Source: Nocardia fluminea (GTDB taxonomy: Bacteria > Actinomycetota > Actinomycetes > Mycobacteriales > Mycobacteriaceae). From it: a stretch of DNA of 64,000 bases. Shown here one piece after another: positions 3,827-50,813 of this stretch; position 1 is the first letter of the stretch; every line of letters starts with the position of its first letter. Location: positions 1,054,001 through 1,118,000 of the forward strand of contig NZ_PJMW01000001.1 of the NCBI RefSeq assembly GCF_002846365.1. The letters run 5' to 3'. The notes beneath the pieces were generated by a model, which saw nothing but the letters and a program-made list of their open reading frames with translations, was not told the DNA's origin and made no database searches. The translations under genes and the position numbers were made by a program.

Positions 3827-4870
3827 GTGCCGGACAATATGAAGCCCCGCGTAGTCGTCTTCGGCCTGGGTGGCACGATCGCGATGTCGGCCACCAGCTC
3901 CGGCGGCGTGGCGCCCAAACTCACTGCCGAGGAACTCGTTTCCGCCGTACCTGGTCTGGCCGAGGCGGAAGTCGACGTGGAAGTCGTCCAGTTCCGCCAA
4001 TTGCCTGGTGCGTCACTGACATTGGGCGATATTGCTGCCCTCTGCGATGCGATTGAACTGCGCTCATCGTCGGCGGATGGGTTTGTCGTCACCCAGGGCA
4101 CCGACACCATCGAGGAGACCGCTTACCTCATCGATCTATTGCACCCTCTCGTCCAGCCCGTCGTAGTGACCGGTGCGATGCGTAACCCGACGATGGCAGG
4201 GGCGGACGGCCCGGCGAATCTGCTTGCCGCTGTCGTGCTCGCCGCCGATCCGGTAGCCCGCGGGCTGGGCTGTGTGGTCGTGATGAACGATCAGGTTCAC
4301 GCGGCAAGCCGAATACGCAAAGGGCACAGCACCAACACCGGTACCTTCGCGTCGCCGAACGGCGGACCGTTGGGATATATCGTCGAGGGCACCGCCCGTA
4401 TTCTGAACAGCGTCCGTCGACCCGGCTCTGTGCCTGCAGATCTCACTAAGCCGCCCCGAGTCCCGATTTATACGGCGGCGCTTGGGGACGACGACGAGAC
4501 CGTACGGGCGATCGCAGGCAAAGCAGATGGGCTCGTGGTGGCCGCGATGGGCGTAGGCCACGTACCGGCGCAGTTGGTAGACGCCCTTGCCGAAACGGCG
4601 ACCACAAGGCCGGTCGTTCTGGCCTCGCGGACCGGTTCGGGCCCAGTCCTGAGTTCCACCTACGGCTTCCCCGGTTCCGAGCGCGATCTGCTCGCGCGCG
4701 GGCTGATATCCGCAGGACTGCTCGACCCGCTCAAAGCCAGAATCTTGCTGGCAGCCGCCATCAGCGCCGGAGGGGACATACGTACCATGCGCCGCGCGTT
4801 CGCAGTTGCTGGTGGCCTATCGAACGATGAATCATGGCCGTGGAAACCAGATTCGGAGAAGATCAACTGA
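3827..4870 (+). CDS. L-asparaginase-fold amidohydrolase
   Basis: A 347-residue member of the asparaginase/glutaminase family, which hydrolyses the side-chain amide of Asn (or related amides) using two threonines. The N-terminal motif GLGGTIAMS holds the first catalytic Thr, and VVTQGTDTIEETAYL (about residue 85) holds the second Thr-Asp pair. VTGAMRNPTMAGADGPANL is also typical. No signal peptide is seen, so it is cytoplasmic. It starts a plus-strand operon with the PPC-domain protein (1-base overlap) and the XRE regulator. This operon converges on the radical SAM/PqqD gene run, so it may act on an amide of that product instead of on free asparagine; that is inference. GTG 3827 is preferred, with ATG 3839 possible. 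Confidence 0.85.
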   Translation: MPDNMKPRVVVFGLGGTIAMSATSSGGVAPKLTAEELVSAVPGLAEAEVDVEVVQFRQLPGASLTLGDIAALCDAIELRSSSADGFVVTQGTDTIEETAYLIDLLHPLVQPVVVTGAMRNPTMAGADGPANLLAAVVLAADPVARGLGCVVVMNDQVHAASRIRKGHSTNTGTFASPNGGPLGYIVEGTARILNSVRRPGSVPADLTKPPRVPIYTAALGDDDETVRAIAGKADGLVVAAMGVGHVPAQLVDALAETATTRPVVLASRTGSGPVLSSTYGFPGSERDLLARGLISAGLLDPLKARILLAAAISAGGDIRTMRRAFAVAGGLSNDESWPWKPDSEKIN

Positions 4871-5328
4871 TGCGCGCACAAGAGGTGACCCTCGGCCGGA
4901 CGTTCGTTGTCGTCTTCGACCATGGCGACGACTTCTACACCGCCCTCAGCCAGTTCTGTCAGCAGAACAATCTGCGGGCTGGCTACATCCCGTCGTTCAT
5001 CGCCGGGTTCGCCGAGGTCGACCTCGTTGGAACCTGCGATCGACTCGACGACCCCCAAGCGCCCGTGTGGTCAAAGGTCCACCTGCGCAACGTGGAAGCC
5101 TTCGGCGCCGGCACGCTCGCCTGGGATCCGGAGACAGCGCAAGTAAAGCCCCATATTCATGTCGCCGTGGGCGTGAAGGAGCAGTCCGCGACCGGCTACA
5201 CCAGTCACCTGTTGGGCGCGAAGGTGCAGTTCCTGACAGAGATGGTCGTTGTGGAAGTAGTCGAGCCGGAGCTGCTCCGCATCCAGAACGCGGAGTTGTA
5301 CGACGTACCGCTGCTTCGGTTCCGGTAG
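4870..5328 (+). CDS. PPC (DUF296) domain protein
   Basis: A 152-residue single-domain protein of the plants-and-prokaryotes-conserved (PPC/DUF296) fold. Members form trimers and often bind a metal through His residues. Typical segments are FDHGDDFYTALSQFCQQNNLRAGYIPSFIAGFAEV at the start, then KPHIHVAVG with two histidines and TGYTSHLLGAKV. The chosen ATG (4870) overlaps the asparaginase stop as TGATG and has GGAGA ten bases upstream. An in-frame ATG at 4834 would overlap more. Bacterial PPC proteins have no clear common enzyme function. Coupling to the asparaginase gene suggests joint action. Confidence 0.8.
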   Translation: MRAQEVTLGRTFVVVFDHGDDFYTALSQFCQQNNLRAGYIPSFIAGFAEVDLVGTCDRLDDPQAPVWSKVHLRNVEAFGAGTLAWDPETAQVKPHIHVAVGVKEQSATGYTSHLLGAKVQFLTEMVVVEVVEPELLRIQNAELYDVPLLRFR

Positions 5329-5370
5329 ATGGTGGGCTATTCCCCGCTCAGTAGCGGATAATCGGAGGCC

Positions 5371-6780
5371 GTGGCACAGACACCGAAGGTGCTCGACCCC
5401 TCACTCTCGCCAGCGGCGCGTTTCGGCGCCGAATTGCGGCGGTACCGCACCGAGCGCCGCTTGTCGCTGGCTGGTCTGGGCAGGTCGGTCCACGTCAGCG
5501 GTGATCTGTTGGGACGAATCGAGAAGGCCGAGCGCAGCGCGAGCCCCGAGCTGGTCGCCAGCCTCGACGCGACCCTCAGCGCGAACGGCGCCCTTCTTCA
5601 ATTGGCCGCGGCTGTGCGGGCTCCCTCGCCGACCGAGGTTCAGTCGGCTGTCACGGGCGTGAAGTGGGCACGAGAGCAGAACACGGCGTCCGGTGAGATC
5701 AGGATCGAAACGCCCGCCGGTCAATATTTCCGCGGAAGCAGCCGAGACGCGCTTCTCGTCCCCGGGCATCACAACAATGGCGTGATCGAGTTGGACCTGG
5801 GAGACCGTCACCGCGCGTTCGCGGCTCGGAGGCGCACACAGTCGTTGATCGTTGCGGCTGTCGAGCAGATTGATCGAATGAGCCACTACGCGTCGTCCAC
5901 CGGCCGGGTCACCGATACCGAGCTGTCGCGGCTGCCTACCGCCTACGAGCTCGACGACCTAACGCTCGGGTTGCTGTGGGCGGTGACCAATCTCGATGAC
6001 GATCTGCTCGATGACGACGCCAATCTGTACGACTTCGTTTCCTCGGACGCGGACAGCGAGCGCATCTCCGAGGTCGCCGTGACTCTTTCGGCGACGTCGA
6101 TGATGTGGCTCGGCTCGGCCTACTGCGCGCGCCATATCCTCGACAACGCCGACGTCCTGACTACGACCCCACAATATTGGACCGCCGAGCACAGCGGCGA
6201 AGCAGCCAGCGGTTGGCTGCTGTTTCGACACAAGCTGGACTACCTCCGTCGCACCGCCAACCTGACGACCGGTTCGTCCCAACCTGGCCGAACGTTCTGC
6301 CTCCCACCAGCTGCGGTCACCGGGCTCGCTCAGCCCGACCGGATCTTGTTGTTCCTCGCAGTGGCGTTGATGGAATCGTTCGGCATCCGGGTCGCCCTCA
6401 CGTCCTCGACTGATTACGCGGACGTACCAGGCTTCGTCATTGACCAGGACGGGACCGCCATTATCGCGAATTGGATTGGCGGCGAGGGAGTCTGGCAGAT
6501 CGACGTCTGTCGTGATCGCCCGAGGTTCAGCGAATTCAGTGGGGCGGTCCGACAGAGTGCGCAAGCGAACCTTTTGACTTCCGCCAGCCCGCACGCTCGA
6601 TTGCGCACGTTGAGTGAGTATTTGGCGATCGACTGGGTGTGGACGGTCGAGCGCTGTGCGGCCATCGCCTCTACCGGTTTGGCCGGGCTGATCCGGCCGC
6701 GCAGTCGGTTGTTGTCGCTGGCGGGTATCGAGCGAGCGTGCGCGTTCCTGGCCGCGCGCCCGCTCGACCAGGCCTACTGA
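5371..6780 (+). CDS. XRE-family helix-turn-helix regulator with large C-terminal domain
   Basis: A 469-residue protein. Residues about 15-70 are an XRE/Cro-type HTH: FGAELRRYRTERRLSLAGLG, then VSGDLLGRIEKAERS. The remaining 400 residues have no obvious enzyme motif and resemble the long sensor regions of actinomycete cluster-situated XRE proteins. The GTG at 5371 is preceded by CGGAGG. It is the last gene of the asparaginase operon and ends inside the 3' end of the histidyl-tRNA synthetase gene (stops overlap at 6774-6780). It is the best candidate for the local regulator of the peptide-modification genes; its target is not known. Confidence 0.8.
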   Translation: MAQTPKVLDPSLSPAARFGAELRRYRTERRLSLAGLGRSVHVSGDLLGRIEKAERSASPELVASLDATLSANGALLQLAAAVRAPSPTEVQSAVTGVKWAREQNTASGEIRIETPAGQYFRGSSRDALLVPGHHNNGVIELDLGDRHRAFAARRRTQSLIVAAVEQIDRMSHYASSTGRVTDTELSRLPTAYELDDLTLGLLWAVTNLDDDLLDDDANLYDFVSSDADSERISEVAVTLSATSMMWLGSAYCARHILDNADVLTTTPQYWTAEHSGEAASGWLLFRHKLDYLRRTANLTTGSSQPGRTFCLPPAAVTGLAQPDRILLFLAVALMESFGIRVALTSSTDYADVPGFVIDQDGTAIIANWIGGEGVWQIDVCRDRPRFSEFSGAVRQSAQANLLTSASPHARLRTLSEYLAIDWVWTVERCAAIASTGLAGLIRPRSRLLSLAGIERACAFLAARPLDQAY

Positions 6781-8060
6781 GACGGGGTGCTTCGAAGTTC
6801 GCGAATGTCGTCGGTGACTGTATTGTCGCCTTCCCTGCGGACGACGACGACCGACCCAAAGTTGGCCGCTTCCAGGCGCTTCAGCTGAGCAGCCATTTTG
6901 CCGCTGCGGGGGATGATCTCGGTGTTACGTCCTTCCGCGCGCAGATCTCGCGCGACCGCCAGCGCGTCGGCGATAGGAACGTCGGCCTCCATCAGAACAG
7001 CAACACCGTCCTTGGCCACGAGGTTGCCAACGAGGTCGATGATGCGCTCGAACCCGATCGAGAATCCGCACGCGGGGACATCACGCCCCAAGGTACGACC
7101 GATCAACTTGTCGTACCGGCCGCCACCAGCGACAGAACTCGAAACGCCGGCATAGGCGACTTCGAAGATCTGGCCGGTGTAGTAGCCCATCCCCCGGACC
7201 AGGGTCGGATCGAACTGCCACGCCACCGCGCGATCCCGGCCGAGCGCATCCAGGCATCCAGTCGTGACAGACAAATCGGCAAGCACGTTCTCCGCGAGAT
7301 CAGGAAGCGCGTTCGCAAGGACGTCCACCAGCTTCTCGGCCCCCACACTCTGGAGCTGGCCGATGACATCCAGCGCGTTCTCGACAGCCGCGGCGGGCAT
7401 CGCGAGTGCGTCCAATTCTTTGCGGACACCATCCCAGCCGACCTTGTCGAGCTTATCCAGGGCGATGAAGAACCGATCCCAGCTCTGCTGCGGCAGCCCG
7501 GCCGACGAAGCCAGCGCCGACAAGAACCGGCGATCCGATAGCCGAACAGTCATATCGTTCAAGCCGACCGCGGCAAGGGCGGTGGTGGTCGCCTCGATCA
7601 GTTCCGCTTCCGCGAGAACACTGCCCTCGCCGATCAGATCGATGTCGCACTGGTAGAACTGGCGGTATCGACCTTTCTGTGGCCGCTCGGCTCGCCACAC
7701 CGGGCCGATTTGCAGCGACCGGAAGGGCGTAGGTAGCTGTGCGGCGTTGTTGCCGTAGAACCTGGTCAGCGGCACCGTCAGGTCGAATCGCAGGCCGAGG
7801 TCGACCAGTTCGGCTAGCGTTGTATCCGGTGCCATCTCGTCGGGCAGCCCACGCCGCAGCACTTGGTAGAGCAGTTTCTCGTTCTCACCGCCTTGGCCAC
7901 CGGTGAGCCGAGCGATGCTCTCCAGCGCGGGAGTTTCGATTCGCCGGTAACCGAATCGGCCATAAATGTCAGTGATCGTGGACAGGACATGATCACGGGT
8001 GACGACCTCGTCCGGCAGCAAATCGCGCATTCCACGGGCTGGACTGTTGTCGGCCTTCAC
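6774..8060 (-). CDS. hisS: Histidyl-tRNA synthetase, eukaryote-like accessory paralogue
   Basis: Class II synthetase attaching histidine to tRNA-His, about 428 residues. All signatures are present: ARGMRDLLPDE at the N terminus, motif 2 GPVWRAERPQKGRYRQFYQCDID, the histidine-specific LVRGMGYYTGQIFEV, motif 3 CGFSIGFERI, and a C-terminal HGTP-type anticodon domain. The segment ALDKLDKVGWDGVRKEL and the phrase FYQCDID are close to eukaryotic HisRS and unlike standard bacterial enzymes. The preferred start is GTG 8060 (GAGGA five bases upstream); ATG 8081 is in frame without a good ribosome site. It lies at the 3' end of the radical SAM gene run and probably has its own promoter (TACGAT, 8106-8111). 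Possible roles are self-resistance or supply of charged tRNA. Presence of another hisS elsewhere is assumed, not seen. Confidence 0.88.
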   Translation of the reverse strand: MKADNSPARGMRDLLPDEVVTRDHVLSTITDIYGRFGYRRIETPALESIARLTGGQGGENEKLLYQVLRRGLPDEMAPDTTLAELVDLGLRFDLTVPLTRFYGNNAAQLPTPFRSLQIGPVWRAERPQKGRYRQFYQCDIDLIGEGSVLAEAELIEATTTALAAVGLNDMTVRLSDRRFLSALASSAGLPQQSWDRFFIALDKLDKVGWDGVRKELDALAMPAAAVENALDVIGQLQSVGAEKLVDVLANALPDLAENVLADLSVTTGCLDALGRDRAVAWQFDPTLVRGMGYYTGQIFEVAYAGVSSSVAGGGRYDKLIGRTLGRDVPACGFSIGFERIIDLVGNLVAKDGVAVLMEADVPIADALAVARDLRAEGRNTEIIPRSGKMAAQLKRLEAANFGSVVVVRREGDNTVTDDIRELRSTPSQ

Positions 8061-8150
8061 GAGTGTCCTCACTGGGGTCATAGGGTTGGCATCGGTTGCG
8101 CGACCATCGTAGAAGATCGCAGGTCGATGTTGCGGGGTGCTCCGGCGCGG

Positions 8151-9038
8151 TCAGAAGACCTGGTAGGCGTCGAGCGCGCGCCTCGCCTCTGCGAAATCTT
8201 TCGCGGCTTGGGTGCTGTCGACCCACTCTTCGCCGTATATGAGGTCGAGTTGGTCGGGGATGACGCCGTACACGTCGCCGGGGCGGGTGCGGGCGCCGAA
8301 GTCACCCAGTAGTCGACGACGGCGTGGTGTTTGACGCGCGAGAATCGCAGGTTCGGGCGTCGTCCAGTAGTCGACGGGGCGACAGAACAATTGGCCGAAG
8401 CGAAGTACCACGCTGACGCGGGTGGTCTCGGTGTCATTGGGCGCGACGCCGTGCCCGAGAGCGAGCGGAAAGACGACGACGTCGCCCGCGTGAGCGCGGA
8501 TTTGCACCGGTCGATCGACGTCGCGGTAGTCGATCTTGCCGGGAAAAGTCTGCAGGTGCGAGCCGGGCACGACAGCGAAGTTGCCGCTGTTTTCGGTGGC
8601 TACGTCGGTGAGGAAGAACTGTGCCTTGAGTTGCACGCTAGGCCCGGCGGCGCCGTTTCGCAGAGAGGGTCCTTGGTCTGTGTGGAATGCGACGAGCGGT
8701 TCGACGCTTGGGTAGCGAAAGAAGATCTCCGAGCCGAGAAGTTGCAGGTAGGGGCCCAGCAAACCAACAATTTTGCCGAATACGTTCGGATGGTCGACCA
8801 ACCTGTCGAGCTCTGGGCACCATTTCAAGCCGTTCGTGATGCTCAGGTCGCGGTCATTGCCCGCGTCGAACACGTCCGCCCAGCCATGGTGGTCGCCACT
8901 GGTGAAATCGTGCTCAACCGCGGCGAGTGCCTCCCGAGTCCGGATGACGTCGTCGTCGTTGAGGGCCTTACGCAGATGCAGGTACCCGAGGCTCGCCCAC
9001 TGGCGACGCTCAGCCTCTGTGAGCAGATCCTGGGTCAT
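8151..9038 (-). CDS. Phytanoyl-CoA dioxygenase-family Fe(II)/2-oxoglutarate oxygenase
   Basis: A 295-residue PhyH-family oxygenase. The first two iron ligands are in AFHTDQGPS (H-x-D, about residue 118). The distal histidine is in LGHGVAPNDT (about residue 198), followed by the arginine in TTRVSVVLRFG that should bind 2-oxoglutarate. The substrate-facing region contains SEIFFRYPSVEP. PhyH enzymes hydroxylate or otherwise oxidise unactivated carbons and are common in natural-product clusters. The gene starts three bases after the stop of the second oxygenase gene, so both are co-translated. The likely substrate is the modified peptide or its excised product (inference). Confidence 0.88.
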   Translation of the reverse strand: MTQDLLTEAERRQWASLGYLHLRKALNDDDVIRTREALAAVEHDFTSGDHHGWADVFDAGNDRDLSITNGLKWCPELDRLVDHPNVFGKIVGLLGPYLQLLGSEIFFRYPSVEPLVAFHTDQGPSLRNGAAGPSVQLKAQFFLTDVATENSGNFAVVPGSHLQTFPGKIDYRDVDRPVQIRAHAGDVVVFPLALGHGVAPNDTETTRVSVVLRFGQLFCRPVDYWTTPEPAILARQTPRRRRLLGDFGARTRPGDVYGVIPDQLDLIYGEEWVDSTQAAKDFAEARRALDAYQVF

Positions 9039-9041
9039 CGT

Positions 9042-9749
9042 TCAGCCCACCGTTCCGTACAGAGTGGTAATCGAATATCGGGGCCCCTGAGTCACTGGCA
9101 GCACCTCGTGGACGCGAGCCGGCGAAAGCGGCAACAGTAGAGCGGAATTGAACTGAGGTACGAAGCTCCGGCGCTGCGTTCCCATCGTCCACACCTTCCT
9201 CGGGAAGTACCACTCGGGATCATCGAACTCCGCGACATGTCCCACCGTCCCTACGGACGTCTCGCCGCCGTGCGCGGGTCGCCACCATTGAGTCAGGTTG
9301 AACGTGACCGACAGCCGGAACTCCGGCGCCGGGCAGTCATCATGCGGCCGCACGTAGTCGCCCGCGTCCATTCGATAGGGGCTCGGTGGCCGTAGCACCT
9401 CCAACGGGGCATCGAACCACCGACTGAGCTGCTCGAGCCACCACTGCCCAGTGAATAGTGCGAGCGCGCTACTAGCGTCCGGAAGAGGCGGGCGCCTGGT
9501 CACAATGGGGCTGTCGGGCAACTCGCCCTGACGTACTGCGCGACTAACCCGCTTCGTGTCACCGATCTGCTCGCGAGCGTAGACAAGTTCCTCGGCGAGA
9601 TGATGGGAAAGGGCCTGTGCGTGGCCAGCGGACAGGACATCACAAACACGGACGGCCGCGAGCTCACCGTCGAGCCGAGCAACGTCACCGACCACGCATT
9701 CGCCGACCTCGACCGGCGACGCGGTGAGGTCGAATTCGGCTAACCGCAT
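9042..9749 (-). CDS. 2-oxoglutarate/Fe(II) oxygenase (prolyl-4-hydroxylase-like fold)
   Basis: A 235-residue oxygenase. The facial triad is visible as VRPHDDCP (H-x-D, about residue 136) and VHEVLPV (distal His, about residue 215), followed after a short gap by the cosubstrate arginine in GPRYSITTLYG. The segment SVTFNLTQWWRPAHGGET matches the central strands of the SM-20/P4H family. Two unrelated Fe/2OG oxygenases side by side suggest two successive oxidations. The gene follows the Gfo/Idh oxidoreductase after 18 bases and is nearly contiguous with the PhyH gene. Confidence 0.82.
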   Translation of the reverse strand: MRLAEFDLTASPVEVGECVVGDVARLDGELAAVRVCDVLSAGHAQALSHHLAEELVYAREQIGDTKRVSRAVRQGELPDSPIVTRRPPLPDASSALALFTGQWWLEQLSRWFDAPLEVLRPPSPYRMDAGDYVRPHDDCPAPEFRLSVTFNLTQWWRPAHGGETSVGTVGHVAEFDDPEWYFPRKVWTMGTQRRSFVPQFNSALLLPLSPARVHEVLPVTQGPRYSITTLYGTVG

Positions 9750-9767
9750 GCGATTTCACCCTTCGAT

Positions 9768-10787
9768 TCAGCAGGATCCGTTGAGACGGCCGAGCGCTTT
9801 GCCGCGCGGCCGCTGCCACCGACGCACACGCGGCTGGTCGTAGTCGTAGGCCGCGATGACCGCCGCACTGATCGCGGACGCCGCGCGCAAGCTCGCGCCG
9901 GTCGGCATCTCAGAATCCGCGAGCCTCCACAGGTCCGTGGCCGGACGCGGCATTCCGAACGCTTTCAGGACGGTTGTCCGCGCCGTCGATTCGATGACGG
10001 TGTAATTGGGGTCGACTGTGGCAGTCCCAGCGCCACCGACAACGGTCATGTGCCAGCCGCCGCAATCGGGATGCCCCGGCTGATCAGTGAAGCTCAATTC
10101 GATTTCCACACCACCGATGTGGAACCGCAGTTCCGCCTCGACCTCGGCGCCGCGCACGTTGCGCTCCGTGAGTGACTTCATCCCGGTCGCGACACCAGGG
10201 GTGAACGTCCAGGACGGGATGAACATGGCTACTAGATCGAGAGCGTGGCTGCCGCTGTCGACGAGGACGCCGCAGCGCTGACCGGCCGTACCACGATAGG
10301 TCGGTACATCGGCCGCGTATCGCGCTCGGTATGGCCCCACCCACTTGCCTACGATCCGACGAACTTGCCCGATCTCGCCATCAGCGACCACGTCGGCGCC
10401 TTCACGAACATGCACCTGGTATCGCCGATTGAAGGGCGCGACCATCAGCGGATGTGACAAAGCCAGCGACTGGAGACGGATCAATTCCCGAGGGTTGGTC
10501 GCAATCGGCTTCTCGACAAGGCACGGGATCCTCGGTGGTACAAGTTCAGCGATGCCGAGAACGGCCGATGGTGGCACCGCCACCACCACCGCGTCCAGGC
10601 GTGCCTCCGCCAGCATCTGCGCTGCGCTGTTGAAGGTCCTGCCGCCGAAGGTCTCGGCCAACGCGTTCGCCGAGTTCCCGTTCCGCGAAGCGACCGCGAC
10701 CAATTCAAGGCGCGGATCAGTCACGATATCGAGGGCGTGTGACGCCCCGGCGATTCCAGCGCCGACCAGGCCCACCCGAAGGCTCAT
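9768..10787 (-). CDS. Gfo/Idh/MocA-family NAD(P)-dependent oxidoreductase
   Basis: A 339-residue oxidoreductase. The N-terminal Rossmann motif VGLVGAGIAGASHA starts at residue 5, and the family EKP motif appears in CLVEKPIATNPREL (about residue 93). The C-terminal domain shows GVLVDSGSHALDLV, in the position of the catalytic D/H region of the family. These enzymes oxidise alcohols or amines, or reduce carbonyls and imines, using NAD(P). The start overlaps the stop of the preceding radical SAM gene (ATGA at 10784-10787), indicating translational coupling. In this context it may act on an oxidised side chain from the radical SAM or oxygenase steps. Confidence 0.85.
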   Translation of the reverse strand: MSLRVGLVGAGIAGASHALDIVTDPRLELVAVASRNGNSANALAETFGGRTFNSAAQMLAEARLDAVVVAVPPSAVLGIAELVPPRIPCLVEKPIATNPRELIRLQSLALSHPLMVAPFNRRYQVHVREGADVVADGEIGQVRRIVGKWVGPYRARYAADVPTYRGTAGQRCGVLVDSGSHALDLVAMFIPSWTFTPGVATGMKSLTERNVRGAEVEAELRFHIGGVEIELSFTDQPGHPDCGGWHMTVVGGAGTATVDPNYTVIESTARTTVLKAFGMPRPATDLWRLADSEMPTGASLRAASAISAAVIAAYDYDQPRVRRWQRPRGKALGRLNGSC

Positions 10788-12178
10788 GAGGCGGTCCTGA
10801 TCAGTGGCAGGTGGCGCTGAACGTTCTCGGCGGCTTGGTCCCATTGCTCGCGGATCGGGGTGAGCCGTTCGAGGTGTTCCGCGGACCGGAAGTCCGGGGT
10901 GCAGAATTCGTCGTAGCACCGGCTGACCCAGTCGCGAATCTGGAGTGCCGACATCTCGCCGGTGTGGCAAACGGGCATCTCCAACCAGGTGGTCTTTTCG
11001 TACCAGTACGGGTCGGGGATTGTTATCCCGTATTTGCTCGGGTTGGCGAACACGTCGGTGCCAGGGCGCGGCTCCATCACGTTGAATGTCGCGACTGTCG
11101 GGTTGACGAGCCGTACGAAATCCATTGTGGCCAAGAGTGTTTCAGGGGTATCTCCTGGGGCGCCGACGATGAACGACGCATGCAGTTCCAGCCCAGCGTC
11201 CATGATCCGGGCGGCGGTTTTGTAGAGCCTGGCCGGTGAGGTGCCTTTCCTTACCAGCCTCAACGTTTGTTCCTGAATGGATTCAAAGCCCACGAAGACC
11301 CGGTAGGCGCCGGCGCTCAGCATCGCGTCGAGGACCTGCGGACGTGCGTCCTGGGCCCGCATGTTGCTGGTCCATGGGATCGACACCCCGCGCCGTTGGA
11401 TCTCCTCGCAGATCGCGACGGCACGACGCGGATCGCCGGAGAACGTATCGTCGCCGAAGAAGATCGACGAAAAGCCCAGTTCAGCGACGAGTGCCATTTC
11501 CTCGACGACGTGCTCGGGGCTGTTCCATCGCGCGGTCCTGCCCGCGATGGTCGTCGAACAGAACGTGCAGCGGCTCGGACAACCGCGGGCCGTCATCACG
11601 ACAGTCTCGTAGTCATAATCCAGGTAGTTCCGCATATCGAAGATGTCGCGGTCCGGCAGCCCATACCGGTCCAGTCGCATCTCGGGCGGCGCCGGTGCGG
11701 TGGCTCGTATCCCGTCGCCGTCACGAAAGACCAAGCCCGCCACCTTCGCGAGCCCGGCGGTTCCGCTGCGTTCGGTCAGAGCGTCGGCGAGTTCGACGAT
11801 GCTGTCCTCAGCGTCGAACAGCAGAACGTAGTCGACACAGTCGTGCCGAGTGAGGCACTCCGTGGCGATGAACGACACGTGCGGGCCGCCGAACACCACC
11901 GGGACACTCGGGTTCCACTGGCGGACTGTGTGAGCGATTTCCAGTGCGTGGAAATAGCTCTGCGCGACCGACGTCACCCCGACGAGGTCGGGGCGCAGGT
12001 CATCGAGCCGACGCGCAAGCGCGGCGACGTCGTTTCCTTCGAACGGGAGATCAATGTGGACGACCTCGTGCCCGGCGAGTTTCAACGTGCGTGCCATGTA
12101 CGCGTAGCCCAGAGGCGGGTGCAGCAGCAGCGTGTGCGGGTCGTGGGTGTAGTGCGGGTTGACGAACGCGATTCTCAT
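10784..12178 (-). CDS. B12-binding-domain radical SAM enzyme
   Basis: A 464-residue class-B-like radical SAM protein. Residues 1 to about 150 form a cobalamin-binding-type Rossmann domain (PPLGYAYMARTLKLAGHEV, then PDLVGVTSVAQSYFHA and VVFGGPHVSF). The radical SAM cluster motif is GCPSRCTFCS (C-x3-C-x2-C, about residue 200). The glycine-rich strand IFFGDDTF and GFESIQEQT belong to the TIM-barrel core. No DxHxxG lower-ligand motif is seen, as in many members of this class. Such enzymes often methylate unactivated carbons or rearrange rings. The ATG overlaps the stop of the SPASM gene by one base (TAATG). Confidence 0.87.
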   Translation of the reverse strand: MRIAFVNPHYTHDPHTLLLHPPLGYAYMARTLKLAGHEVVHIDLPFEGNDVAALARRLDDLRPDLVGVTSVAQSYFHALEIAHTVRQWNPSVPVVFGGPHVSFIATECLTRHDCVDYVLLFDAEDSIVELADALTERSGTAGLAKVAGLVFRDGDGIRATAPAPPEMRLDRYGLPDRDIFDMRNYLDYDYETVVMTARGCPSRCTFCSTTIAGRTARWNSPEHVVEEMALVAELGFSSIFFGDDTFSGDPRRAVAICEEIQRRGVSIPWTSNMRAQDARPQVLDAMLSAGAYRVFVGFESIQEQTLRLVRKGTSPARLYKTAARIMDAGLELHASFIVGAPGDTPETLLATMDFVRLVNPTVATFNVMEPRPGTDVFANPSKYGITIPDPYWYEKTTWLEMPVCHTGEMSALQIRDWVSRCYDEFCTPDFRSAEHLERLTPIREQWDQAAENVQRHLPLIRTAS

Positions 12179-13344
12179 TACGGTGCTCCCGTCCGCAACC
12201 GTGGCAAGCCGACGAAAACACCTGGCGCACGTGACGGCTCGGGCGCAGGAATGCCGCGCTCCGCGGTGCCGACCGCGTGCGGAGTGGCGTCGGGGAAGCG
12301 TTGAGCGCCGCATCGCTCGTCGTATTTGCCGTTGTAGTGGAACGCTTTGCAACCGCCCAGACAGCCATCCAGGGCAGAGCAGGATCCGCAAGGTCCTGAC
12401 GGCGGATCCGTGCGGTCGGAGTACCGGGCAACCAGGCGATCCCAGATGTCGGCGAAGGGTTCGTCGCGGACGTTGCCGATGGACTCTTCGATGAAGTTGC
12501 ACCCCGATACGTTGCCGACAGGATCAATCGACACCATGCTGGTTCCGACGTTGCACAAGTTCGACCCGATGAACGCTTCGCGGTTAGCCCGGTCACCCAT
12601 GCGGTCGTCGAGCAAGGTCAGCATGAACGGATCATGTGTATAGATGTCGAGTGTGCCTTGGTATTCCAGGGTCAACTCGTACAGGTCGCGACAGACGTCG
12701 CGGTAGCGCGGCCACAGTCCCCGGTCGAAGACCCCCTGCAGGTTGTAGCGGTTTTGCATAAAGCTGACGGCGTCTACTCCGAGCGCTAGTGCGAAGTCCA
12801 CGATCTGGGCAACGTGCTCGTAGTTGTGGGTGTCGATCGTGGTCGAGAATCCCACCGTCGGCATCCCGGCATCCTTCAGCAACCGCAAAGCCCGCTGGGC
12901 GACGTCGAACGCGCCGACTTTGCCCCTGACCTTGTCGTGGATTGCCGGGTCGATGCTGTCGATCGAGACCATCGCGCGGTTGATCCCGGCATCGACGAGC
13001 CGCTGGGCGTCGTTGGCGGTGCGTACGTAGAAGCCGTTGAGCATCAGCGTCTGATAGAAGTCGAGGTCTCGGAAGGTTGCCGCGGCGTCGTGGAAATCGC
13101 GGCGAATCATGTTCTCGCCGTGGGAGTAGACCAGACTCGCGCTGCCCGCCCGATACAGGTCGTTGGCAAGCGACTCGATCTCAGGCAGGCTGAATTCATC
13201 ACGGCTTCGCCGATATAGCGCATAGCAGTGGCTGCACTTCAGGTTGCAGCGGTATGTGAGACCGAGCTGAACCAGCAGCGGAATGGGGTGCTCGGGAAGC
13301 TGAAACTCACTGGGCTGCACAAGTATCGCGTCGTATTGGGTCAT
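12178..13344 (-). CDS. SPASM-domain radical SAM peptide maturase (PqqE-like)
   Basis: A 388-residue radical SAM protein. The SAM cluster motif is TYRCNLKCSHCYA (C-x3-C-x2-C, residues 33-40). The C terminus has a complete SPASM pattern: C-x12-G-x4-C in NLCNVG...SGCNF, then C-x2-C-x5-C-x3-C in GPCGSCSALDGCLGGCK, and a last Cys in DERCGA. SPASM enzymes such as PqqE and AlbA crosslink or oxidise residues in ribosomal peptides. Its ATG overlaps the PqqD-like stop (ATGA, 13341-13344), so chaperone and enzyme are made together. This is the strongest sign that the locus modifies a ribosomally made peptide. It ends with a basic tail of about 40 residues after the SPASM domain. Confidence 0.9.
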   Translation of the reverse strand: MTQYDAILVQPSEFQLPEHPIPLLVQLGLTYRCNLKCSHCYALYRRSRDEFSLPEIESLANDLYRAGSASLVYSHGENMIRRDFHDAAATFRDLDFYQTLMLNGFYVRTANDAQRLVDAGINRAMVSIDSIDPAIHDKVRGKVGAFDVAQRALRLLKDAGMPTVGFSTTIDTHNYEHVAQIVDFALALGVDAVSFMQNRYNLQGVFDRGLWPRYRDVCRDLYELTLEYQGTLDIYTHDPFMLTLLDDRMGDRANREAFIGSNLCNVGTSMVSIDPVGNVSGCNFIEESIGNVRDEPFADIWDRLVARYSDRTDPPSGPCGSCSALDGCLGGCKAFHYNGKYDERCGAQRFPDATPHAVGTAERGIPAPEPSRAPGVFVGLPRLRTGAP

Positions 13345-13640
13345 GGTGCATCGACCGTCAGCAGGCCCGCCGTCGCGAACTCATCGATGAATGCCTGAAT
13401 ATCGGCGGCGATTTCTTCTTGCGGACCGTCGAACTCTGAGTACAAGGCGTCGATGATGTCTTGAAGCGATCGAGGCTCCTGCGCGAGAAGTCCCACGACA
13501 GTCGACGCGGACTCGTTGAGTTCGTACATCACGCCTTTAGCGCGGTCGAAAAGCATCGTCAGCCCAGCGTTGGTCACGCGGGCAACAGCGTGGGGTCGCA
13601 ACGCGACCACGGCGGTCAGGTTTTCGGTCAAGGCGGACAT
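13341..13640 (-). CDS. PqqD-like peptide chaperone (RiPP recognition element)
   Basis: A 99-residue PqqD-family protein, the stand-alone RiPP recognition element that delivers a precursor peptide to its radical SAM partner. It shows the winged-helix pattern of the family: RPHAVARVTNAG, then LFDRAKGVMYELNESAS and a helical C-terminal half with LQDIIDALYSEFDG. The ATG at 13640 has GAGGT six bases upstream. The frame stays open further upstream to 13760, but that extension looks unlike PqqD and overlaps the short peptide ORF, so it is excluded. It overlaps the SPASM gene by four bases. Confidence 0.88.
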   Translation of the reverse strand: MSALTENLTAVVALRPHAVARVTNAGLTMLFDRAKGVMYELNESASTVVGLLAQEPRSLQDIIDALYSEFDGPQEEIAADIQAFIDEFATAGLLTVDAP

Positions 13641-13726
13641 GGATGACCTCGTCTCGGCAGAAGCAGTTTGAATAGCGATGCCCACCCCCAACCCCTGCGG
13701 CGAAGGTGGACACCAGTGGTTGACAC

Positions 13727-13795
13727 TCAGCAGTGCGTGCGAACGTTGCGCGCACGCCATTGCGGGCGACGCCAGGGGCGCTTCACCTCGGACAT
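13727..13795 (-). CDS. 22-residue peptide ORF: candidate precursor
   Basis: A very short ORF beginning MSEVKRPW, with core RRPQWRARN and ending VRTHC. It has AAGGAGGT seven bases before its ATG, the strongest ribosome site noticed in the window, which argues for real and abundant translation. The peptide is very basic (six Arg, one Lys, one Glu), has two tryptophans at 8 and 13 in a PWR/PQWR near-repeat, and ends His-Cys. It is the first gene of the run, 86 bases before the PqqD-like gene. PqqA is similarly small (22-24 residues), encoded just before the PQQ genes. The alternative is a regulatory leader peptide. Precursor function is inference. Confidence 0.6.
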   Translation of the reverse strand: MSEVKRPWRRPQWRARNVRTHC

Positions 13796-13802
13796 AGGTA
13801 AC

Positions 13803-13810
13803 ACCTCCTT
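13803..13810 (-). promoter_or_regulatory. Shine-Dalgarno of the 22-residue ORF
   Basis: AAGGAGGT on the minus strand, fully complementary to the 16S 3' end seen at 46646-46655, with an ideal seven-base gap to the ATG. It fixes the start of the short ORF. Confidence 0.8.
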
Positions 13811-14394: not shown

Positions 14395-15669
14395 TCAGCC
14401 GACTTCGACCACGGCAAGCGATTTACGGCCTCGCCGAAGCAGGATCCATCGGTTGTGCAGCAAATCCGTTGTGTCCACTACCGCCTCGGCGGTGTCGACT
14501 TTGAGGTTGTTGACGTAGGCGCCGCCCTCGGTCACCGCACGGCGGGCTGCGGATTTGCTGTCGACTAGACCGGTTGCGGCGAAAAGGTCTACGACGCTGT
14601 GGGTTCCGCTCGCGATTGATGCGGAGGGTAGTTCGCGCACCGCATCGCTGAGCGTGGATGCGTCCAGCGTTGTCAGGTCGCCGCTGCCGAACAGTGCTTG
14701 GCTGGCGGCGCGCACTCGGTGCATCGTTTCCTCACTGTGGACCAGGGTGGTGATGTCCTCGGCGAGTGCGCGCTGGGCCTCTCGTTGCGCGGGTCGTTCC
14801 TTGGCGGCTTCCTCGAGCGCCGTGATTTCGTCTTGGCTGCGGAAGGTGAAGATCTTGAGGTAGTCGCCGACTTTGGAGTCCTCGGCGTTGAGCCAGAATT
14901 GGTAGAAGGCATAGGGCGAGGTCATCTCCGGGTCGAGCCAGATCGCGCCACCTTCGGTTTTGCCGAACTTGGTGCCGTCGGCTTTGGTGATCAGCGGTGT
15001 AGCCAGGGCGTGCAGGCTGATTCCCTCGATGCGGTGAGTCAGATCCGCGCCTGCGGTGAGGTTTCCCCATTGATCGGATCCGCCGGTCTGCAACGTGCAG
15101 CCATACCTGCGGTAGAGCTGGTAGAAGTCCATGCCCTGCAGCAACTGGTAGGAGAACTCGGTGAAACTGATCCCGGCCTCACTGTTGAGCCGCGCGGACA
15201 CCGATTCCTTGGCGAGCATCCGATTCACACGGAAGTTTTTGCCGACCTCGCGAAGGAAGTCGAGCGCCGACATCGGTGAGGTCCAGTCCAAGTTGTTCAC
15301 GACCACGGCCGCGTTGTCGCCGTCGAAAGACAGGAATCGCTGAACCTGGTCGCGAATCCGGTCAACCCAGGCCGCCACGGTTTCGTGGTCGTTGAGCACT
15401 CGCTCACCCGACATGCGTGGATCGCCGATGAGACCGGTCGCGCCGCCGACCAGCGCGATCGGTTTGTGCCCGAAGTCCTGCAAGCGACGCATCGTCAGCA
15501 GCTGCACGAGATTTCCCATGTGCAAGCTCGGCGCAGTCGGATCGAAGCCGCAATAGTAGGTCACCGGGCCGGCCGCCAGGGAAGCACGCAGCGCGTCCTC
15601 GTCGGTGGACAGCGCGACAAGCCCGCGCCAGGAGAGCTCGTCAAGGGCATTGGCCCGGATCTGGGTCAC
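14395..15669 (-). CDS. tyrS: Tyrosyl-tRNA synthetase, second copy
   Basis: Class I synthetase charging tRNA-Tyr, 424 residues. The HIGH-type motif is PSLHMGN (about residue 50), preceded by the tyrosine pocket motif YYCGFDPT; the KMSKS-type motif is KFGKT (about residue 232). The tyrosine-contacting pattern Y-x3-Q-x2-D...Q is kept in FSYQLLQGMDF and [11 protein letters not shown], and an S4 RNA-binding domain ends the protein. It differs clearly from the housekeeping TyrRS at 48650-49936 (HAGH, KFGKS, LLQANDY). The GTG start at 15669 has GAGAGGA eleven bases upstream. It is intact, so it should be active. A second TyrRS next to a peptide-modification locus suggests resistance or a dedicated role; alternatively it is a passenger of the island. 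Confidence 0.9.
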   Translation of the reverse strand: MTQIRANALDELSWRGLVALSTDEDALRASLAAGPVTYYCGFDPTAPSLHMGNLVQLLTMRRLQDFGHKPIALVGGATGLIGDPRMSGERVLNDHETVAAWVDRIRDQVQRFLSFDGDNAAVVVNNLDWTSPMSALDFLREVGKNFRVNRMLAKESVSARLNSEAGISFTEFSYQLLQGMDFYQLYRRYGCTLQTGGSDQWGNLTAGADLTHRIEGISLHALATPLITKADGTKFGKTEGGAIWLDPEMTSPYAFYQFWLNAEDSKVGDYLKIFTFRSQDEITALEEAAKERPAQREAQRALAEDITTLVHSEETMHRVRAASQALFGSGDLTTLDASTLSDAVRELPSASIASGTHSVVDLFAATGLVDSKSAARRAVTEGGAYVNNLKVDTAEAVVDTTDLLHNRWILLRRGRKSLAVVEVG

Positions 15670-16068
15670 GACTGCGAAAGTCCTCTCGGTAACTGGACCG
15701 CGGTGAGCGGGCCTCTGCGACTGGCTCGCCCCGATCTCGAGGTCGGCCCAGGGCAAGTCTGAGATTTGGAGCAACCACAGAAGCCAGCGATCGGATCGGT
15801 TGCCATGCCGATACGAGTCCAATAATCACTGACCGCCCCGACATGTTCGCGGGGGACGTGCCTCTGACGGAAGGTAGCAACCCGTAGCGCCGACGTCCCG
15901 CTACGGTCGTTCACCTACGTGGATCATCTACGAGGAAACTCCGTAGCCTTGAGAGCACGGACTGACACGGAAAGGGCCCGGACGAACCCGCCGTGCGCCC
16001 ATACTTCAGGGCACGGGATATGTCCGGGGCCTTCCGTTTTCGATCTCGCTACGCCGCGCTGGAGCGCG
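15670..16068. other. Intergenic region upstream of the second TyrRS gene
   Basis: About 400 bases without a supported gene. It contains the hairpin at 15969-16035. No T-box (specifier stem plus anti-terminator with the conserved T-box sequence) was recognised upstream of the TyrRS start. Confidence 0.4.
15969..16035 (-). terminator. Long hairpin downstream of the 16070-16660 gene
   Basis: Near-complementary arms GGAAAGGGCCCGGAC and GTCCGGGGCCTTCC enclose a smaller stem (GTGCGCCC with AGGGCAC). It lies 35 bases past the stop of the minus-strand gene at 16070. On the plus strand the hairpin is followed by a short T-run, so it could end transcription both ways. Confidence 0.6.
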
Positions 16069-48649: not shown

Positions 48650-49936
<1,287 letters not shown>

Positions 49937-49964
49937 GCTGACCCATCTTTCCGCATGCGGTTCG

Positions 49965-50813
49965 TCAGTCGCGTGCGCGGGTGAGCCAGGCGAGCAGATC
50001 GGCTTCGACCTCGTCGCGGTTGGTTTCGTTGAGGACTTCGTGGCGGGCGTCCGCGTAGACCCGATAGGTGAGGTCGGCCAGGCCCGCGTCGCGGTAGCGC
50101 TGGACGAGCAGGTCGGACAGGCGCAGCTTGCTGTTGAGCGGATCCTTGTCACCGACCATCACGTAGATGGGCAGGTCGGCGCGCACGGAACTCGGATCGG
50201 ACAGTCGCGTCACGGCGTTGGCGGCGAGCAGGCCCATGTTGGCCTCGTCGATGGCGAAACCGCACCAGGGGTCGGCGTTGTAGGCGTCGACCTGGGCTTC
50301 GTCGCGACTGATCCAGTCGGCGTCGGTGCGGGTGGGCTGGAACTCGGCGTTGAAGAAGCCGATCAGGTCACCACCGGCGGCCGCGATCTCGCCGAACAGG
50401 CCGTCGACCGCGGTGGTGCCGCTCAGGACCACCTCGTCCACGAGGCCGGAATGGTCGAGCAGGTACTGCTGCACGGCGAAGGAGCCGAGGCTGTGGCCGA
50501 TCAGGGTGACGGGCAGCCCGGGATGACGTTCGCGCAGGATGCCGGTGAGCGCGACCTCGTCGGCGACGAGCAGGTTCCACCCGTCGGGACCGAGGTCACC
50601 CGGCACGGGACCCATGCTGAGACCGTGCCCGCGGTGATCGTCGGCGTAGACGGCGAACCCGAGCCCGGCCAGCCGTTCGGCGAGGTGCCCGTAGCGGTCG
50701 GAATGTTCGCCCATGCCGTGCGCGATCTGCACGACCCCGCGAGGCTCCGTTTCCGTGGGGAGCCAGCTCCGCACGTGGATCGTGGTGCCGTCGCTGCTGG
50801 GGAAAGTGAACAC
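49965..50813 (-). CDS. Alpha/beta hydrolase, monoacylglycerol-lipase-like
   Basis: A 282-residue serine hydrolase of the Hydrolase_4/monoglyceride lipase group. The oxyanion region is [20 protein letters not shown], then [10 protein letters not shown]; the nucleophile elbow is [10 protein letters not shown]; the acid lies in [11 protein letters not shown] and the histidine in [11 protein letters not shown]. Such enzymes release glycerol and fatty acid from monoacylglycerols. No signal peptide is seen. It follows the DoxX gene on the same strand and ends 28 bases before tyrS. Confidence 0.9.

Follow-up and report, generated by a model that had tools for sequence, protein, structure and literature searches.

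Main

Biosynthesis of pyrroloquinoline quinone (PQQ) combines a very short precursor (PqqA), a stand-alone PqqD-type recognition element (RRE) of the kind used for ribosomally synthesized and post-translationally modified peptides (RiPPs), and a radical S-adenosylmethionine (SAM) enzyme with a SPASM domain (PqqE). The mycofactocin system of actinobacteria (MftA, MftB and MftC) likewise pairs an RRE and a SPASM enzyme with a short precursor that has a conserved C-terminus, which in MftA is Val-Tyr. Of a different kind are the mupirocin, indolmycin and obafluorin clusters, which carry a second aminoacyl-tRNA synthetase for self-resistance; to our knowledge none of the three targets histidyl-tRNA synthetase (HisRS), and we know of no dedicated natural product that does. 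Here we analyse a 64,000-nucleotide stretch (the window) of the 8.06 Mb genome of Nocardia fluminea (assembly GCF_002846365.1, contig NZ_PJMW01000001.1, positions 1,054,001 to 1,118,000), in which eight genes run together on the minus strand. They join a tiny precursor gene, a PqqD-like protein and two radical SAM proteins to a second HisRS. The most likely reading is that they represent a so far undescribed RiPP family whose product is directed at HisRS and in which the second HisRS serves for self-resistance.

A first-pass annotation of the sequence had proposed a peptide-modification (RiPP-type) operon with a tiny precursor. Our analysis supports this proposal and, taken by itself, we regard such a pathway as highly probable. 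The minus-strand run with short or overlapping junctions is there with all of the gene families named (gaps of 86, −4, −1, −4, 18 and 3 bases in order from the precursor gene). The account was thus right in kind, but it missed the two most informative features, the HisRS and a tail on the oxidoreductase, and its boundaries of 8151..13795 were too narrow: the HisRS gene (6774-8081), 69 bases further on, belongs to the cluster.

Comparison with described systems

The likeness to PQQ biosynthesis that the annotation had drawn holds for the PqqD-type protein and the SPASM enzyme, but membership of that family was rejected. The equivalog models score below their cut-offs (PqqE, TIGR02109, 88.3 versus 381.35; PqqD, TIGR03859, 33.3 versus 46), the conserved part of the precursor, WRRPQWRARNVRTHC, contains neither Glu nor Tyr (Tyr is absent from all 12 homologous precursors from the assigned start), and the PqqA-like length of 22 residues is incidental. 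Relative to PQQ, the cluster adds a B12-binding radical SAM protein, a Gfo/Idh/MocA oxidoreductase (MocA), Fe(II)/2-oxoglutarate (2OG) oxygenases and HisRS. Mycofactocin membership was also rejected (MftC, TIGR03962, 105.7 bits versus a cut-off of 265); the precursor sequence differs, ending in Thr-His-Cys rather than Val-Tyr. Gene families were assigned by Pfam and NCBIfam scans that took in part of the flanking genes. Among the genes scanned we saw no lanthipeptide enzyme, cyclodehydratase, PqqB, PqqC, exporter or peptidase, in agreement with the earlier remark that the locus matches no named RiPP class.

Lasso peptide leaders bind their RRE via a Y-x-x-P motif, which the W-x-x-P of our precursor resembles. 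The predicted structure of the PqqD-like protein (predicted local distance difference test, pLDDT, 91) has as its nearest folds in the PDB lasso B1 proteins in complex with their leaders (5v1u, 5v1v and 6jx3), followed by PqqD. Unlike lasso clusters, however, this one has radical SAM chemistry, and no lasso cyclase or peptidase was seen among the genes scanned. Pearlins (3-thiaglutamate type, made by PEARL enzymes) resemble the system in linking tRNA charging to RiPP chemistry and in having a scaffold peptide whose C-terminal Cys matters, but an aminoacyl-tRNA-using partner (PEARL or LanB-like ligase, cyclodipeptide synthase) was not seen among the scanned genes. For the B12 enzyme, ApyD (aminopyruvatide-type B12 radical SAM) is the third-best NCBIfam model, after BchE and HpnJ, at 152 bits against a cut-off of 750.

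As in the mupirocin, indolmycin and obafluorin clusters, a full-length synthetase of another lineage stands beside biosynthetic genes, although here a ribosomal peptide would supply the active part. The proposed target would be shared with histidinol, but this is a simple intermediate of histidine synthesis behind which no dedicated peptide cluster with a spare HisRS lies. A paper on the kinase GCN2 describes histidinol as a HisRS inhibitor (PMC11336063), the only one that we met in open-access searches, so a small histidine analogue can block the enzyme. Open-access full-text searches found no paper that treats the cluster, a HisRS within a RiPP cluster or the precursor letters, with subscription journals and bioRxiv mostly outside their reach, so that a published description is possible.

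A short precursor conserved in two phyla

Scanning genomes with the SPASM protein as query returned 11 loci, of which a distant one (L012, Entotheonella, 23% identity) was dropped from all counts. Together with the window and a further stretch of Nocardia DNA (L056), the other ten make up the 12 loci compared here. Eight come from Nocardia and one each from Nonomuraea, Saccharothrix, Lentzea and Mucilaginibacter, the last in another phylum. Six Nocardia genomes listed twice, as their identical contig coordinates show, were each counted once; L057, which is part of locus L007, was not counted, and L071 was left out.

All 12 loci contain a short open reading frame (ORF) with a nearly fixed C-terminus. 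The last 15 residues are near-invariant (W-R-[RK]-P-[QL]-[WS]-R-A-R-N-[VI]-R-T-H-C, then stop), and the N-terminal part differs among loci in both length and sequence; with the assigned starts, precursors of actinobacteria are 20 to 29 residues long and that of Mucilaginibacter 46 or 53. Pairwise comparison of the 15 C-terminal codons gives 459 synonymous differences and 44 non-synonymous ones, the latter at four positions only. The recurrence of the 15-residue pattern and this drift of codons argue that the ORF is not there by chance, and on such evidence it is a genuine tiny precursor gene. The 22-codon ORF picked out in the first-pass annotation also has a good ribosome-binding site, and the refuting condition set there, that related PqqD/SPASM pairs would lack a conserved short ORF next to them, did not apply, as every locus has one. 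The window's own genome yields one full-length match to the precursor (3.4e-11), the next of six matches having an E value of 0.03, and no NCBIfam model matched the three precursors tried. Because the gene is only 20-30 codons long in most loci, gene callers miss such clusters; the near-invariant 15-mer, spanning two phyla, offers a simple probe for further ones.

A linked HisRS of changing lineage

The last gene of the cluster scores 305.9 bits with the hisS model TIGR00442, above the cut-off of 286.75, and the alternative identity of HisZ, the regulatory subunit of ATP phosphoribosyltransferase, was rejected (TIGR00443, 192.2 versus a cut-off of 271.65). One other HisRS is present in the window genome (G000:C2:4596535), and all 17 carrier entries, in which the six duplicated Nocardia genomes appear twice, have at least two HisRS genes. 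The cluster HisRS lies within the fetched stretch of 11 of the 12 loci; in the twelfth (L005), where the contig is cut, it is on another contig of the same genome. Nine of 148 Nocardia genomes have a HisRS-like gene of this kind and all eight SPASM carriers are among the nine, an overlap with a chance probability of 1.9e-12 if kinship is ignored. The ninth (G141; L069, 9162-12674) retains a shortened carbamoyltransferase match, a methyltransferase and the HisRS, with the core genes absent from the 28 kb read, and so holds a decayed cluster. A comparison of contig sizes between SPASM and HisRS matches (15 of 119 and 7 of 120 agree) is supporting only, being blind to matches collapsed at 90% identity. 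The second HisRS belongs to the cluster.

In a HisRS tree (IQ-TREE, 37 sequences including PDB entries), the 12 cluster copies fall at three separate, well-supported places. Those of Nocardia lie on the side of 6nhi and the human enzyme (100/99), those of Nonomuraea, Saccharothrix and Lentzea group with 1wu7 and 3hri (98/95), and that of Mucilaginibacter groups with ordinary bacterial HisRS (100/100), its other copy, taken as housekeeping, grouping with 6nhi. The nearest PDB sequences are 6nhi for the Nocardia cluster copy, and 3hri and 1wu7 for the Nonomuraea one. The lineage of the cluster HisRS is thus unlike that of the host's other HisRS, in a tree with long branches. The genes for PqqD, SPASM, B12 and MocA proteins stand beside the precursor gene in all 12 loci, and the 2OG oxygenase is absent solely where the L005 contig ends. 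In a combined SPASM and B12 tree, the split between the Nocardia loci and the four others has 98% support. By the HisRS tree, HisRS was replaced within the cluster at least twice, which is firm, and on our reading three times. An enzyme specialised for biosynthesis would be expected to share the history of its cluster, whereas a resistant spare target need not. Because HisRS was exchanged and the core genes were retained, a target-type resistance gene fits better than a specialised biosynthetic enzyme, and on the same grounds we propose that the product inhibits HisRS.

The Saccharothrix genome contains another two matches to HisRS, separated by about 10 kb (G547, contig C45; L054/L055), in surroundings that resemble those of non-ribosomal peptide synthetases, judged from the start of one long ORF. 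These are possibly another HisRS-related cluster.

A precursor-like tail on the oxidoreductase

MocA ends in a tail that resembles the precursor. Ten loci have WxRPRxKALGRLNG[SA]C at this end, Nonomuraea has WLRPRFKPWGRLNGSC and Mucilaginibacter has WIFPRAKVLAKRSGAC. We scanned all six frames of 17 loci, the 12 cluster loci and five others, with the strict pattern W.[RK]P..[RK].{5,9}C-stop, which matched the 12 precursors, 11 MocA tails and nothing else; a looser W..P pattern added the twelfth tail and one chance match. The motif scan is better evidence for the likeness than a residue-shuffle test, in which the score was reached by 95 of 20000 shuffles for the window and 267 of 20000 for L006. 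This test is modest, above all for Nonomuraea (975 of 20000) and Mucilaginibacter (927 of 20000), and to that extent weighs against the likeness.

In an 11-row alignment of MocA, no 16-residue stretch is better conserved than residues 324-339 (0.87 versus 0.52 for the body). The AlphaFold2 model (pLDDT 89.5), whose PDB neighbours are ordinary Gfo/Idh/MocA dehydrogenases, is of low confidence chiefly at residues 320-339, all of which score under 50. A tail that is conserved yet apparently disordered is likely to be a binding or substrate peptide. By analogy with the Y-x-x-P of lasso leaders, W-x-x-P is likely to be the PqqD-binding element of both the precursor and the tail. Both peptides also end in an invariant Cys, which docking alone does not explain, and this hints at possible modification of the tail as well as docking. 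Coupling of a dehydrogenase to RiPP machinery through a precursor-like tail would be new.

Proposed pathway and alternatives

On balance, the gene content points to an undescribed RiPP pathway that probably makes a HisRS inhibitor and has a resistant HisRS built in. PqqD would bind the W-x-x-P part of the precursor and present its C-terminal R-N-V-R-T-H-C, around whose His-Cys the SPASM enzyme would modify or cross-link the peptide. The B12 enzyme would add a methyl group, MocA and the oxygenases would oxidise the peptide, and a host peptidase would free a small modified-histidine product. This product would block the housekeeping HisRS while the cluster HisRS kept the producer alive. A histidine-like active part is plausible because the single His of the precursor core adjoins the C-terminal Cys, and HisRS may well be what the product inhibits because the linked HisRS, of a lineage unlike the host's other copy, looks like a self-resistance gene. 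With its copy of the recognition motif and its C-terminal Cys, the oxidoreductase would dock on PqqD or be modified itself. More tentatively, the cluster may be a two-substrate RiPP system, in which one PqqD/radical SAM machinery acts both on the free peptide with its Thr-His-Cys end and on the oxidoreductase tail with its Gly-Ser/Ala-Cys end; the oxidoreductase would then be tool and substrate at once, its modified Cys serving as an installed cofactor or carrier arm, and the free peptide would give rise to the first dedicated natural-product HisRS inhibitor known to us, the metabolite histidinol aside. A product of the predicted kind would be a lead that is encoded genetically and whose target is predicted, and the second HisRS makes that target directly testable with purified enzymes.

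Several observations weigh against a HisRS-directed RiPP. Chemistry and activity are inferred from the genes. No exporter or peptidase family, conserved or otherwise, was seen among the genes scanned. The SPASM gene of one of the eight Nocardia loci (L011, Nocardia beijingensis; 8649-9811) is split in two frames, by either sequencing error or decay. The branches of the HisRS tree are long, and a count of labels on it forces two changes, not three, because the count leaves the PDB rows aside and accepts 'cluster' as an ancestral state. The pocket motif RGMGYY was rejected as a resistance signature, as it occurs, bar small variants, in all 120 of the Nocardia-type HisRS relatives listed. Finally, an archaeal-type HisRS occurs in 3 of 333 Streptomyces genomes (L079, L080 and L081) with no cluster gene in the fetched stretches, possibly as resistance in non-producers or possibly unrelated. 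The same query, from the Nonomuraea cluster, found none in 396 sampled Actinomycetota. Taken by itself such an empty result would prove nothing, but the Streptomyces matches provide a positive for this query.

The alternative that survives best, which we consider unlikely, is that the HisRS paralogue is biosynthetic. It would activate histidine or a histidine analogue, or transfer it in adenylate or His-tRNA form, with the peptide as acceptor or with peptide and oxidoreductase serving as carriers through their C-terminal Cys. Such a role would account for the invariant terminal Cys of both and for the Mucilaginibacter operon, in which HisRS lies between oxygenase and kinase genes, and tRNA-dependent peptide extension by PEARLs is known (PMC11962472). 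However, no known aminoacyl-tRNA ligase is among the genes scanned, the carrier genomes already own another HisRS and the precursor already encodes His. The slot is also filled by different types of HisRS, unlike that of a specialised catalyst.

Distinctly unlikely, too, is a peptide-derived redox cofactor similar to PQQ or mycofactocin, which the oxidoreductase would use or carry, the HisRS being a passenger. The pairing of PqqD with SPASM, the near-invariant precursor and the conserved oxidoreductase tail would suit a cofactor; the tie of HisRS to the cluster and the sub-threshold PqqE and mycofactocin equivalogs would not. The distribution of the cluster, which is rare and patchy, also argues against it: the SPASM gene is present in 8 of 148 Nocardia genomes, in only the genome of the window itself among 396 sampled Actinomycetota, in 2 of 346 genomes of the family of the Saccharothrix genome (both among the 12 loci) and in 1 of 206 from that of Mucilaginibacter (Mucilaginibacter itself). 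The variable tailoring genes are likewise more typical of a natural product. The PhyH-type oxygenase is found in seven of the eight Nocardia loci, the eighth being the cut contig of L005; carbamoyltransferase and methyltransferase genes occur in two Nocardia loci (L004 and L006), and two P-loop kinase-like proteins in the four non-Nocardia loci (L007-L010). Nonomuraea and Mucilaginibacter in addition have a DUF6687 protein (L007, 15135-16130; L009, 12513-13505).

A regulatory upstream ORF (attenuator) in place of a precursor, for which the position of the short ORF ahead of the operon and the 86-base gap in the window could be cited, is very improbable, as the amino acids are conserved while codons drift, there is just one His codon and one Cys codon, a similar motif closes the oxidoreductase itself, and in Nonomuraea, Saccharothrix, Lentzea and Mucilaginibacter the ORF precedes the oxygenase gene, not that for PqqD.

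Enzymes and gene surroundings

The radical SAM proteins, MocA and the oxygenases keep their expected catalytic motifs, as judged from alignments. All 11 aligned SPASM homologues, from which the split L011 gene was left out, share CxxxCxxC and another seven invariant Cys, and the B12 enzyme has CPSRCTFC in 12 of 12. Invariant residues are K93, D177 and H181 in MocA (11 aligned rows), H136, D138, H214 and R224 in the 2OG oxygenase (11 of 11) and H119, D121, H196 and R207 in the PhyH oxygenase (7 of 7 Nocardia homologues). The PqqD-like protein carries an invariant LxMLFDRxKGVMYELNExAS in ten aligned homologues, the misframed L011 row being ignored. The starts of the PqqD, B12 and MocA genes were shifted to conserved methionines (Table 1).

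Table 1 Features of the cluster and its accessory genes in the window
Feature	Position	Strand	Evidence
Precursor gene, 22 aa, MSEVKRPWRRPQWRARNVRTHC	13727..13795	-	C-terminal 15-mer conserved in 12/12 loci; synonymous codon drift
Shine-Dalgarno AAGGAGGT of precursor gene	13803..13810	-	Sequence; 7 bases ahead of ATG
PqqD-like peptide-binding (RRE) protein, 99 aa	13341..13640	-	PF05402, 5e-15
Radical SAM/SPASM protein, 388 aa	12178..13344	-	PF04055 and PF13186
B12-binding radical SAM protein, 464 aa	10784..12178	-	PF02310 and PF04055
Gfo/Idh/MocA oxidoreductase, 339 aa	9768..10787	-	PF01408; fold of Gfo/Idh/MocA dehydrogenases
Precursor-like C-terminal tail of oxidoreductase, residues 324-339, WQRPRGKALGRLNGSC and stop	9768..9818	-	Tail of this kind in 12/12 loci
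Fe(II)/2OG oxygenase (2OG-FeII_Oxy_3), 235 aa	9042..9749	-	PF13640
PhyH-type Fe(II)/2OG oxygenase, 295 aa	8151..9038	-	PF05721; among the 12 loci only in Nocardia
Second HisRS, 435 aa, proposed self-resistance gene	6774..8081	-	TIGR00442 hisS; co-occurrence; tree
Asparaginase-like, PCC-domain and helix-turn-helix (HTH) genes, accessory	3827..6780	+	Common to the window and 4 other Nocardia loci

Relatives of the SPASM protein form 156 protein clusters at E ≤0.001 among 7999 candidates scored. The best 120 of these 156 come mostly from unnamed metagenomes and also from Kitasatospora, Carbonactinospora, Micromonospora and Terracoccus. A plasmid search returned 253 records, none with at least 60% identity.

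The asparaginase-like, PCC-domain and HTH genes differ in position between the window and the four other Nocardia loci that carry them. Two tyrosyl-tRNA synthetase genes are present in the window (14395-15822 and 48650-50152, both minus strand), and three in the whole genome score over the tyrS cut-off. The one upstream of the precursor gene (14395-15822) was considered as a cluster member and rejected, since as a query it had no match above 60 bits in ten other loci (L002-L011). At 1165-1263 on the plus strand, the window has a match to a group II intron (Rfam RF00029, 64 bits).

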